NCBI GenBank assembly: GCA_018222865.1
Contig: JAAEZM010000003.1
Span: 1-64,000 of the forward strand
Direction: 5' to 3'
Source of the DNA: Alphaproteobacteria bacterium
GTDB lineage: Bacteria; Pseudomonadota; Alphaproteobacteria; Caulobacterales; Maricaulaceae
DNA length: 64,000 bases
Shown: positions 3,268-40,346 of the stretch, piece by piece
Position numbering within the stretch: the stretch's first letter is position 1
Layout of the letters: the number at the start of each line of letters is the position of its first letter
Made by a program: the position numbers and the translations under genes
The notes under the pieces: model-generated
The model's input: the letters and a program-made list of their open reading frames with translations, nothing else
What the model was told of the DNA's origin: nothing
Database searches by the model: none

Positions 3268-5943
3268 ATGGCTTCTTTGGACAGTTTTTCCTGTAAGCGC
3301 ACCCTCACCGCAGCCGGTGAAACCTACACCTATTACGACTTGAAAGTCGCAGAGGCGAACGGCCTGACGGGTGTGTCCCGCCTGCCAGCCTCCTTGAAGG
3401 TGCTGCTGGAGAATCTCCTGCGCTTTGAGGATGGCAAGACGGTCACGAAAACAGACATTGAGGCGATGTCTGAATGGTTGACGACGAAGAGTTCGACGCA
3501 CGAGATTGCCTATCGCCCAGCGCGTGTTGTGATGCAGGACTTTACCGGCGTCCCCGCCGTTGTCGATCTGGCAGCCATGCGCGATGCCGCCGGGAAACTC
3601 GGTGCTGACCCCGAGCGGATTAATCCGCAAGTCCCAGTGGACCTGGTCATCGACCACTCCGTCATGGTTGATTATTTCGGCGGCGAGAACAGTTTCGCCA
3701 AGAATGTTGAGCGCGAATACCAGCGCAATGGCGAGCGCTACAAATTCCTGAAATGGGGCGCGAAAGCCTTCGATAATTTCCGCGTCGTGCCGCCAGGAAC
3801 CGGTATTATTCACCAGGTCAATCTTGAAAACCTGGCCCAATCCGTCTGGACCAGAGAAGAAGACGGCGAAACGATTGCTTACCCCGACACGTGCGTCGGC
3901 ACTGACAGCCACACCACGATGATCAACGGCCTGGCAGTCCTGGGCTGGGGCGTTGGAGGGATCGAGGCCGAAGCTGCCATGCTCGGCCAACCGGTCTCTA
4001 TGTTGATCCCGGAAGTCATTGGCTTTGAACTGACCGGCAAATTGCCCGAAGGCGCAACTGCCACCGACCTGGTACTAAAAGTGGTCGAGATGCTTCGTGC
4101 GCGCGGCGTGGTGGGCAAGTTCGTCGAGTTTTATGGCGACGGCCTCAATAATCTCTCACTCGAAGACGAAGCCACTATCGCCAATATGGCACCGGAATAT
4201 GGCGCGACTTGCGGCTTCTTCGCCGTCGATAATGAGACGCTGGAATATCTGCGCGCCACAGGCCGCGATGACAAAAGAGTGGCTCTCGTCGAGACCTATT
4301 CCAAGGCGCAGGGCATGTTCCGCCCCGATTATGACGCCGATCCGATCTTCACCGACACCCTGCATCTCGACATGGCCACGATCGTCCCGGCCCTGTCCGG
4401 TCCGAAACGCCCGCAAGACTGGATCGAGCTGACCCGCGCCGCTCAAGGCTTCTCCGAGATCATGGAGAGCGAATATGGCAAGGGCGATGAGATGGGCAAG
4501 TCAGCCCCGGTAGAGGGTGAGGACTGGGAGTTCACCAATGGCGATGTCGCCATCGCGGCGATCACCTCCTGTACCAACACGTCTAACCCGTCTGTCTTGC
4601 TGGGAGCAGGGCTCCTCGCCCGGAACGCACTCGAGAGGGGCCTGAGCCGCAAACCCTGGGTCAAGACCTCGTTGGCCCCGGGCTCCCAAGTCGTGACCGA
4701 TTATCTTGAGAAGGCCGGCCTGCAGGATGATCTCGATGCGCTGGGCTTCAATCTGGTCGGCTATGGCTGCACCACCTGTATCGGCAATTCCGGACCTCTG
4801 CCTCCGGCGATATCCAAAACGATCAATGACAATGATCTGGTCGCGGCCTCCGTTCTTTCAGGCAATCGCAATTTCGAAGGGCGTATCTCTCCGGATGTCC
4901 GTGCCAACTATCTTGCATCGCCGCCGCTTGTCGTCGCCTACGCCATTGCAGGCACGATGACCAAGGACATCACGACCGAACCGCTTGGTCAGGATCAGGA
5001 AGGCAATGATGTCTTCCTCAAGGATATCTGGCCGAGCAATCAGGAAATCACCGACGCGGTGCGTGCGGCTGTTTCCCCGGACATGTTTGCGACCCGTTAT
5101 GCTGATGTCTTCAAAGGTGATGAAGCCTGGGCCTCCATCGAGGTCTCCGGAGGATTGACCTATCAATGGGATCACACCTCCACCTATGTCCAGAACCCGC
5201 CCTATTTCGAAGGCATGACAATGGAGCCGGAAGCGCCTGGCGATGTCATCAACGCCAAGATTATGGGCCTGTTCGGCGATAGCATCACGACCGACCACAT
5301 CTCCCCCGCTGGCTCCATAAAGGCCAGCAGCCCGGCGGGCCGCTATCTGCAGGAGCGCCAGGTTCCAGTGCTGGAGTTCAACTCCTATGGATCGCGCCGC
5401 GGCAATCACGAGGTGATGATGCGTGGCACATTCGCCAATATCCGCATCAAGAACAAAATGCTCGACGGCGTCGAAGGCGGTTATACGCTGAAGGACGGCA
5501 AGCAGGTCGATATCTATGATGCCTGCATGCAATACCAGGCCGAAGGCACGCCGCTCGTGGTCTTTGGCGGCAAGGAATACGGCACCGGATCCTCTCGCGA
5601 CTGGGCGGCCAAAGGCACGCGCCTTCTGGGCGTGAAAGCGGTCATCGCAGAGAGTTTCGAGCGCATCCACCGCTCGAATCTGATCGGTATGGGTGTCCTG
5701 CCGCTCCAGTTCGAGGACGGGCATTCATGGGATGGGCTGGGCATGACCGGCGATGAGAGCGTCACCATCACCGGCGTGTCAGAGTTGGAACCGCGCTGTG
5801 AGATGACGGTTGAGATCACCTTCCCGGATGGCACAGTGAAGAAAGCGCCTGCCAAGGCCCGTATCGATACCGAGAATGAGCTGGAGTATTTCCGCAATGG
5901 CGGCATTCTCCACTATGTTCTGCGCAATCTGGCGCGCGACTAG
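3268..5943 (+). CDS. acnA: Aconitate hydratase A
   Basis: 891 aa; aconitase motifs [74 protein letters not shown]. Confidence 0.98.
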
Positions 5944-6036
5944 GGCTTCATAGCGCCAATCGTCTCGACAGGATCTCTCGCGCGCATAACGTCCAAGTGA
6001 TTGGAAAGTGCGCGCGGGAGGCTCTATCTAGGTCTC

Positions 6037-37352: not shown

Positions 37353-37901
37353 ATGTCCAAACCAGCTGACGATCTGGTATTCGTTGCGGCGATCGCCGGA
37401 GCGCATGGGATTAAGGGCGAGTGCAAGGTGAAGAGCTTCACCGGCAAGCCCGAGGCCCTGTTCGATTACGGTCCCTTTCTCAATGAGAAGGGCGAGGTGA
37501 TTTACACGCCTCAGCGCTGGCGCCTGAACAAGGACGCCTTCATCGTCTCTTTCACCCAGAAAATGACCCGTGACGACGCTCAGGCTGCTCGCGGAACAAA
37601 GCTCTACGTCCCCCGCTCCGCCTTGCCGGAGCTGGAGGAAGATGAATACTACCACTCCGATCTCATCGGATTGAAAGTCCAATTACTGGACGGCTCGCCC
37701 ATGGGCAAAGTCCGCGCCGTCCATGATTTCGGCTCCGGCGATATTCTAGAGATCGTCGATAGCCCGGATCGCCGCGGCGCCTGGATGATCCCCTTCACCC
37801 TGGAACAAGTCCCGCATGTGTCGATCAATGAGGGTGTCGTTACTATCGATCCGCTCGAAGAGATCGAAGGGGACAAGGGCCGGGATACCAACACGCTCTA
37901 A
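37353..37901 (+). CDS. rimM: Ribosome maturation factor RimM
   Basis: DLVFVAAIAGAHGIKGECKVKSFTGKPEALFDYGP..., DLIGLKVQLLDGSPMGKVRAVHDFGSGDILEIV; synteny rpsP-rimM. Confidence 0.95.
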   Translation: MSKPADDLVFVAAIAGAHGIKGECKVKSFTGKPEALFDYGPFLNEKGEVIYTPQRWRLNKDAFIVSFTQKMTRDDAQAARGTKLYVPRSALPELEEDEYYHSDLIGLKVQLLDGSPMGKVRAVHDFGSGDILEIVDSPDRRGAWMIPFTLEQVPHVSINEGVVTIDPLEEIEGDKGRDTNTL

Positions 37902-37994
37902 GTGCCAGAGATGTGATAGGCATGGACAATAGGTAATAATCATTCCAGCCACTGATCAGTTAACTCCTAACGTCAAGCGTCGTAGGAGAAAAGC

Positions 37995-38813
37995 ATGATC
38001 GCCGGGCTGGATATCGATCACATTATGATCGCGTGTGATGATCCGCGTACTGATTTCGAAACCTTCAAAGAGCTAACCGGCTATCCCGAGGCTTGGCCCT
38101 ATAATGATTTTGGCGCCATCAAGACCGGAGCGATCTGGGTTGGACAGACCGCAATTGAGTTTGCGAAGCTGGAGGGCGCAAAGTCCTACCCGCCTCGCAT
38201 CGCTGGACTGGCATTGTCGAGCAGTCTTGAGCCATGGGATTTGGCAGACGCCCTAAAAGGCCTGGGAATATCCCATGTTCCCCCCACCCATATCGCACCA
38301 GATTCGGAAGATCGCCTTTCCTGGGTAAATCTGATGATTGGCGGATTTCTGACGGGTGAGCCACGGACGCTCTGGCTCGGGCGGCGATTTGGGGGCGGAT
38401 CAGGATTTGCCCGCTGGATGTCGCGTATGGCTGAGAACATGGCCGCCAAGCCGGGCGGACTTCAGCGCCTCAATGGTGTCCTTGATAAACAAATGGCATT
38501 TTTCATCCGCTACCTGCCGGAGCAAACAGCCATTGATCAACGCGCAGCAGCTCAGCTTTCACTCTCCAGCACAATATCCGCTCGCATAGAGATCGGTCTC
38601 GGTGCAAGCGCCCTCCAAGCCGGGAACTGGTCAAGCCTGATCGGTTCGGACATCACCCCTGGCTGTGAGTGGGAAAGCCCCAGTGGCACCGTTCTCAGTT
38701 TCTTGACAACGGATCGCGCCGAGCTTCAGCGCATTGTTCTGACTGTCACTTCACCGCCACGCGCACCTCTACCCCTTCACTTGGGTGATCTGATCGAGTT
38801 TCGAGAGGCCTGA
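37995..38813 (+). CDS. VOC/glyoxalase-like domain protein inserted between rimM and trmD
   Basis: MIAGLDIDHIMIACDDPRTDFETFKELTGYPEAWPYNDFGAIKTGAIWVG... Confidence 0.8.
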   Translation: MIAGLDIDHIMIACDDPRTDFETFKELTGYPEAWPYNDFGAIKTGAIWVGQTAIEFAKLEGAKSYPPRIAGLALSSSLEPWDLADALKGLGISHVPPTHIAPDSEDRLSWVNLMIGGFLTGEPRTLWLGRRFGGGSGFARWMSRMAENMAAKPGGLQRLNGVLDKQMAFFIRYLPEQTAIDQRAAAQLSLSSTISARIEIGLGASALQAGNWSSLIGSDITPGCEWESPSGTVLSFLTTDRAELQRIVLTVTSPPRAPLPLHLGDLIEFREA

Positions 38814-38961
38814 GCTCTATTCGGCCCTCAACTCGCGCTGTTGTGGCCCGATCTTGTTTCTGCCCTGGACTGACTTTGCCCGCCCTCGCCATGACTTTGC
38901 CCGAGCATCTGATACAGGGCTTTCTCATGAAGCAGGGCGTTTTTGTTTGCACGGTCGTCTT

Positions 38962-39093
38962 CGCGGCGCCTGGATGATCCCCTTCACCCTGGAACAAGTC
39001 CCGCATGTGTCGATTTCCGACGGCATGGTGACGATTGATCCGCTTGAAGAAGTGGAAGGGGATGAGGACCGGGACGAGACGTCGGACGACTGA
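38962..39093 (+). pseudogene. Duplicated rimM 3'-end remnant
   Basis: RGAWMIPFTLEQVPHVSISDGMVTIDPLEEVEGDEDRDETSDD* matches the RimM C-terminus RGAWMIPFTLEQVPHVSINEGVVTIDPLEEIEGDKGRDTNTL*; the first 53 bp are identical to 37773-37825. Confidence 0.9.
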
Positions 39094-39108: not shown

Positions 39109-39537
39109 TTGCAAGAGCAGTGCGCACTGCTACCCTCCAGGGGTGTAGTTGCACTGGAGCCTTCTGTCTTGACGTTTTTAAGTTTGATTGCCGCGCTTGC
39201 GCTGCAGAGCAATGCGCAGCTTCCCGCGCAGCCTGAATACCGCATCGAGCCACAATTCCCGCCCCGAGTAGCCGAAGCTGGATTGGCGGCCAGATGCCGC
39301 GTCGACGCCCGGGTGGGCGAACAAGGCCTCCTCGTTGACATTGTCCCTCAATGTGCGACTTCGCGCCGGTCGCGCGGCCGTACGGACTATGTCGGCATGC
39401 TGGAAAGGGTCTCTCAGCGCGCTGTAGAGCGCTGGACTTTCAATGAGCGCCATATTGGCGAAGAAACCAGCACGTGTTTCACATTTCAGGTGATGGGCGG
39501 CGATCCGCTCAGCGCTATTGAAGACGCCCCGTGCTGA
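39109..39537 (+). CDS. Hypothetical protein with TonB C-terminal-like domain
   Basis: Hydrophobic N-terminal segment then YRIEPQFPPRVAEAGLAARCRVDARVGEQGLLVDI...ERWTFNERHIGE; start uncertain. Confidence 0.6.
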   Translation: MQEQCALLPSRGVVALEPSVLTFLSLIAALALQSNAQLPAQPEYRIEPQFPPRVAEAGLAARCRVDARVGEQGLLVDIVPQCATSRRSRGRTDYVGMLERVSQRAVERWTFNERHIGEETSTCFTFQVMGGDPLSAIEDAPC

Positions 39538-39608
39538 GCCAGCCTCACCCTGGCTAAGCGAAGTCAACCGCTAGCCGCGCGTCTGCATCCCTGCTAAACC
39601 CGCGCGCC

Positions 39609-40346
39609 ATGACTGACATTGCGCGCACAAATCCCTGGACGGCAAGCGTCCTCACCCTCTTCCCGGACGCCTTTCCCGGGCCTTTGGGTGTATCGATTAT
39701 TCAAACAGCTGCGAATCGTGGGCTTTGGGCGTTAGAAACTGTGGACATCCGGGATTTTTCCCGTCATAAGCACCGCTCCGTGGACGACACCCCGGCCGGC
39801 GGAGGCGCTGGTATGGTGCTCAGGCCGGATGTCGCAGCGGAAGCGATCGATGCGGTACAGTCTCGCTGGGACGGTGAGAAACGGCCGCTGATCTATTTGA
39901 CACCGCGGGGACGACCCATCACTCAAACCCGGGTTCGGGAATGGGCGGCGGGTTCCGGCGTTGTTGTATTTTGTGGACGTTTTGAGGGCCTGGACGAAAG
40001 GGTCATCGAAAGCCGCGAAATGGAAGAGGTCAGTGTTGGCGATGCCGTGCTGGCCGGGGGCGAGGCACCCGCGCAGCTTCTTATTGAAGCCTGTGTGAGA
40101 TTGCTCCCCGGCGTGCTCGGTGACCCGGCATCGGCCGAAGATGAAAGTTTCGAGGGCGATCTCCTCGAATATCCTCACTACACCCGGCCGCGGGTATGGG
40201 AGGAGAAGGAGATCCCGGAAGTGCTGTTGTCGGGGCATCATGGCCAGATCGAGGCCTGGCGTCGGGAACAGTCGGAAGAGATTACGAAGGCGCGCCGGCC
40301 GGACCTTTACGAGCGGTACCTAAGGCGCAAGGAGAATGCACGATGA
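39609..40346 (+). CDS. trmD: tRNA (guanine-N1)-methyltransferase
   Basis: [89 protein letters not shown]. Confidence 0.97.

Follow-up and report, generated by a model that had tools for sequence, protein, structure and literature searches.

The window analysed here, a stretch of 64,000 nucleotides, comes from the genome of a Maricaulis sp. whose assembly comprises 31 contigs (100% complete, 0.18% contamination). Its rimM-trmD interval harbors two genes, ORF272 and a small TonB_C-like gene, the latter located between a second RimM tail and trmD (Table 1). The product of the small gene, as read by eye, probably carries a signal peptide. The end of rimM and the truncated remnant downstream share an exact 53-bp direct repeat, which opens a longer direct repeat of 113 bp (84% identity, spacing of 1189 bp), the sole direct repeat of at least 30 nt in the 64-kb window (seed 16). 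The two copies display 18 differences, all within the last 60 bp and none in the first 53 bp, and each RimM tail possesses its own stop codon, with the 272-codon ORF in between. The stretch 38800-38975, in which the left edge of the remnant lies, occurs once in the genome. The rimM-trmD interval is devoid of integrase genes and of genes of any other mobile element. The preliminary description of this DNA had reported the exact repeat, the diverged tails with separate stops, and the lack of an integrase, all of which are confirmed; it had also counted a single gene in the interval, which is correct between the repeat copies and has to be completed with the second gene preceding trmD.

Table 1. 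Features of the rimM-trmD interval (window coordinates).
Feature	Position	Strand	Remarks
rimM, intact, 182 aa, bears tail 1	37353..37901	+	TIGR02273 140 bits above cut-off; Pfam RimM, PRC_RimM
Repeat copy 1, 53 bp	37773..37825	+	Identical to 38962-39014
RimM tail 1, SINEGVVTIDPLEEIEGDKGRDTNTL	37826..37901	+	Farther than tail 2 from each of the 13 relatives
ORF272, 272 aa	37995..38813	+	Orphan, save for a 43% homologue at another place in a second Maricaulis genome
Nonhomologous junction	38961..38962		Intergenic sequence meets rimM 3'-end interior; alignment stops abruptly
5'-truncated rimM remnant	38962..39093	+	Repeat copy 2 (53 bp), tail 2 SISDGMVTIDPLEEVEGDEDRDETSDD and stop
Small gene, weak TonB_C similarity (below Pfam cut-off)	39109..39537	+	Of a kind common in the rimM-trmD slot
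Conserved promoter-like sequence CATCCCTGCTAAACCCGCGCGCCATG abutting the trmD start	39586..39612	+	In Maricaulis, restricted to genomes whose rimM and trmD are separated by a gap
trmD	39609..40346	+	NCBIfam equivalogs above cut-off

Among Maricaulis rimM orthologues, variation rises toward the gene end, and the repeat copies were therefore compared with orthologue pairs. Each of the 91 pairs differs within the first 53 bp, with a minimum of 1 and a median of 11 differences; in the 51 pairs whose last 60 bp contain 12-26 differences, comparable to the 18 seen here, the first 53 bp accumulate 3-16. Using the orthologue rate ratio, the probability that none of the 18 differences of the repeat copies falls in the first 53 bp is ~5e-4. 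Hence the 53-bp identity is recent and the break that follows it is real; the abrupt switch from identity to divergence is not a product of rate variation along rimM.

ORF272 is nearly an orphan. Its single homologue among 137 genomes of the family (43% identity) belongs to genome G018, where it is found on a contig other than that of rimM. A search of 387 class genomes retrieved nothing beyond ORF272 itself, nor did searches of plasmid, phage, and viral-contig sequences, and no family match was obtained in Pfam, NCBIfam, PDB sequences, PHROGs, or PADLOC. Its GC3 of 0.575, against 0.62-0.72 in the neighbouring genes, is consistent with a foreign origin without proving it. The fold prediction (mean pLDDT of 38) was too poor to enter the fold search; the low-confidence model exhibits a VOC-like start (strand-helix-strand-strand), which does not count as evidence. 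The preliminary description had placed a VOC/glyoxalase gene between the repeat copies: an ORF is indeed located there, whereas its VOC identity finds no profile or structure match in Pfam, NCBIfam, or PDB, nor any support in PHROGs or PADLOC.

In many sister genomes rimM is directly followed by trmD, and in nine Maricaulis loci the end of rimM overlaps trmD by a few bases. In four other Maricaulis loci the two genes are separated by 772-1505 bp containing small, mostly orphan genes, and the gap and no-gap states are interspersed. Elsewhere in the family the gap reaches up to 4.2 kb and is filled with small secreted-type genes, many of them interrelated. This range of gaps, together with the interspersed states, identifies the rimM-trmD interval as a variable slot. 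The arrangement with both tails is common to none of the relatives compared, and an old vertical inheritance is not borne out.

Some recurrent elements have been observed in these slots. A family of small secreted-type proteins, with weak or no TonB_C similarity and a CPDD...ALQ motif, recurs in rimM-trmD slots across the family, often as several diverged copies (loci L041, L051, L054, L056, L144, L162, and L169). The sequence CTGCTAAACCCGCGCGCCATG adjoins the trmD start with 0-1 mismatches in all five gapped Maricaulis loci (the window, L036, L038, L041, and L043) and with 2 mismatches in the Oceanicaulis-group loci L144 and L049; it is missing (at least 8 mismatches) in the nine Maricaulis loci in which rimM and trmD overlap. 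It looks like the promoter of a leaderless trmD transcript, putatively moving together with the gap. An imported trmD-rplS tract in the window, to which a BLAST segment 87.6% identical to L036 could have pointed, was discarded, sliding-window comparison revealing roughly equal conservation of trmD toward every relative.

Two further rimM-tail scars were found across several hundred genomes, in L144 (genome G120) and L233 (genome G602), by a protein search in 137 genomes of the family and a tail-profile (A1) search in overlapping sets drawn from the order (398 genomes), family f5 (63), and the class (387), a survey that older or shorter rimM remnants could escape. The remaining double matches of the order-wide survey are weak, unlinked matches or represent a full second rimM-like copy (G061), the two matches of G733 aside. 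In G061 (contigs C25 and C17) and G733 (C1 and C65), the two RimM-type genes or tails reside on separate contigs and may be true paralogues or contamination. G120, from the genus of the Oceanicaulis records, gave in the protein search a second RimM-tail match shortly downstream of rimM. In this L144 locus, rimM positions 2116-2219 are repeated at 3442-3545 (103 of 104 identical), beyond which the tails diverge, each with its own stop. A gene of 313 aa, unrelated to ORF272 and without an integrase match, lies between the copies and is followed by more slot genes before trmD.

L233, from the same order and more distant than the Oceanicaulis-group case, makes both parental types readable, these being represented by the relatives L241 and L245, not by the actual parents. 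Across rimM and its upstream flank, L233 shares 80.8% identity with L241, against 69.7% with L245. From position ~1783, 19 bp past the stop of the intact rimM, to ~3660, the sequence matches L245 (~81-97% per 150-bp step) and has no counterpart in L241; this imported piece starts inside an L245-type rimM and includes LysR-like and azoR-like genes. From ~3660, just before trmD, identity is 93.3% to L241 versus ~84-86% to L245, and the switch to the L241 type on this side takes place at a point common to both parental types. The RimM tails tell the same: the intact gene ends like that of L241 (...DVDLDAMRQEDS) and the remnant like that of L245 (AFTRDNIPAVDLEDGSITVRRA). Between the L233 remnant and its intact rimM, identity is just 70%, a pattern unlike that of the window and a point against carrying the reading of L233 over to it. 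Taken together, tail types and segment identities indicate that a strain of one type received a chromosomal piece of the other type, joined without homology behind its native rimM.

From L233 we infer the same process in the window, as it has the same elements: intact rimM, slot content, nonhomologous join into a rimM 3' end, further slot content, and trmD. The window arrangement probably (about 70%) arose by recombination between strains whose slots differed in content, in which one boundary was nonhomologous and two slot alleles became joined. Slot content would be swapped between strains, with the flanking housekeeping genes serving as homology. The two alleles would now stand head to tail, rimM with tail 1 and ORF272 being followed by the rimM 3' remnant with tail 2, the TonB-like gene, and trmD. 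One end of the exchange would have been homologous, and the 53-bp identity block is compatible with such an end. The other end would be an illegitimate join into the interior of the rimM 3' end, and nonhomologous joins are found at 38961/38962 in the window and at ~1782/1783 in L233. As this join would have fallen inside the rimM 3' end, a 132-bp piece of rimM would have been duplicated. The identical 53 bp would represent sequence common to both alleles, identity stopping where the tails differ by descent. Each tail would have arrived with its own neighbour genes, the intact rimM presumably still working and the remnant being a scar.

As to the direction of transfer, tail 1 and ORF272 may have entered a strain possessing tail 2 and the TonB-like gene, or, in the reverse, the remnant side may have been imported, as in L233. 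Tail 2 is nearer than tail 1 to 13 of 13 relatives, in comparisons that are not independent, which favours tail 1 and ORF272 as the import, although either direction may hold. The preliminary description had favoured recombination over a simple tandem duplication, and the identity break, the orthologue pairs, and the probability given above bear this out, as well as the different ancestry it assigned to the two tails. Its further proposal that one tail is native and the other imported agrees with this ancestry, with either tail a candidate for the import, as it is the remnant that came in in L233.

Other routes to the same anatomy have to be weighed. In a Campbell-type single crossover, a circular DNA carrying a rimM 3' end and ORF272 would integrate into rimM, and the predicted order is that of the window: an intact rimM with an imported tail, the cargo, and a native truncated copy, in line with the proximity of tail 2 to the relatives. 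Nothing, however, points to a circle, which is also unnecessary because a linear exchange with one nonhomologous end yields the same anatomy. In addition, the stretch from the left edge to the crossover should differ as the tails do, one copy being native and the other foreign, and yet it is identical, while both flanks of L233 are of one type with the foreign piece in between. This route is improbable; of the integration proposed earlier, homologous recombination is retained and the circle is not, the L233 import lying between a native-type rimM and trmD. Alternatively, the rimM end could have been duplicated in tandem, an ORF inserted between its two copies, and 53 bp homogenised by gene conversion after the tails had diverged. 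Such a course would need local events only, and conversion between close repeats is common. It requires, however, several independent steps and a conversion tract stopping exactly at the tail divergence twice (in the window and in L144), and leaves L233 unexplained, for which reason it is given the same small weight as the circle.

A restored 3' end accompanied by a truncated remnant is also the classic anatomy of site-specific integration, in which an element would provide the replacement tail (attL in rimM, attR being the remnant) through an integrase acting in trans or since lost. On the left, the three remnants begin 9, 13, and ~28 nt before the same conserved RimM Trp codon position, within ~20 nt of each other, tighter than random ends would predict and a point against the exchange of slot alleles. 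Against this stand inserts without a visible integrase (ORF272 alone between the window copies), unrelated cargo with nothing shared outside the remnants and no phage or plasmid relative, and a remnant in L233 made of donor rimM plus resident gap genes, i.e., of ordinary chromosome; such an integration appears still less probable than the two routes above. The flanks of the three remnants display no obvious shared sequence. The phage collection contained no rimM-tail-bearing phage of related hosts; its RimM matches, considered as carriers of att sites, were set aside, as they cover most of the protein at 26-32% identity and are mostly unannotated records. There is also a slight chance that the rimM 3' end is, in this order, a preferred entry for accessory genes, incoming DNA joining at a defined place ~10-30 nt upstream of the conserved Trp. 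The essential operon would then act as a cassette slot that needs no integrase, where arrivals would bring their own RimM tail and leave the other tail downstream. An assembly or binning artefact is the least probable explanation of all: some comparison genomes are MAGs, but the window contig is continuous in its assembly, the repeat is shorter than usual reads, and the same kind of scar is found in two other independent genomes.

The exchange between slot alleles has counterparts in described systems. Homology-facilitated illegitimate recombination (HFIR) is established in transformation of Acinetobacter, Streptococcus, and Pseudomonas stutzeri. It is further characterised by uptake of linear DNA, dependence on RecA, and a short microhomology at the illegitimate joint. 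The exchange proposed for the window would resemble it in having one homologous end, a nonhomologous join at the other, and added foreign DNA; HFIR has been described experimentally, whereas the window case is read from genomes and its duplicated piece is the end of a housekeeping gene. HFIR in E. coli conjugation is reported in PMC3240628. In V. cholerae, T6SS effector-immunity arrays arise by sequential displacement, for which HFIR has been proposed in a study that refers to an equivalent proposal for Rhs C-terminal displacement (PMC5361080). These arrays similarly receive a new module behind a conserved anchor, older 3' ends and genes being pushed downstream as remnants; the anchor is here rimM, a ribosome maturation gene, the cargo is no known effector-immunity pair, and the arrays are short. 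Rhs and CdiA displacement likewise combines a constant 5' part with swapped 3' ends, the displaced ones being kept as orphans, whereas at rimM only ~25 residues of variable tail change and no toxin function is involved. Hotspots of horizontal transfer between core genes, as presented in PMC5635113, also show variable accessory content between two core genes without the need of a mobile-element gene; the rimM-trmD slot differs in interrupting an essential operon that is usually tight. Integrase-dependent 3'-end islands possess an intact gene with a replaced 3' end and a truncated remnant, but no integrase or common element arms are found here and the donor piece of L233 is chromosomal.

The open-access literature yielded no paper describing rimM as a site of insertion. 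The finding is best seen as a natural instance, in an unusual location, of a process already known. It illustrates how a mobile element can be dispensable for the entry of accessory genes into one of the most conserved bacterial operons, the duplicated tail recording the event, so that such scars may be used to find similar exchanges beside other core genes. Hotspots that work without an integrase are a known phenomenon; L233, L241, and L245, with both parental types, make the boundaries readable.

Other features of rimM were observed besides the duplicated end. The window RimM shares 71-75% identity with the four Maricaulis relatives nearest to it, and those four share 79-83% across their own lineages; the divergence of RpsP and TrmD of the window, unlike that of RimM, is not unusual. 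The portion of rimM upstream of the repeat may thus also have been exchanged. In L035, a Maricaulis MAG, rimM (5457-6008) harbors an in-frame TGA at the conserved Trp codon (GA*MIPF), which may reflect an error of sequencing.
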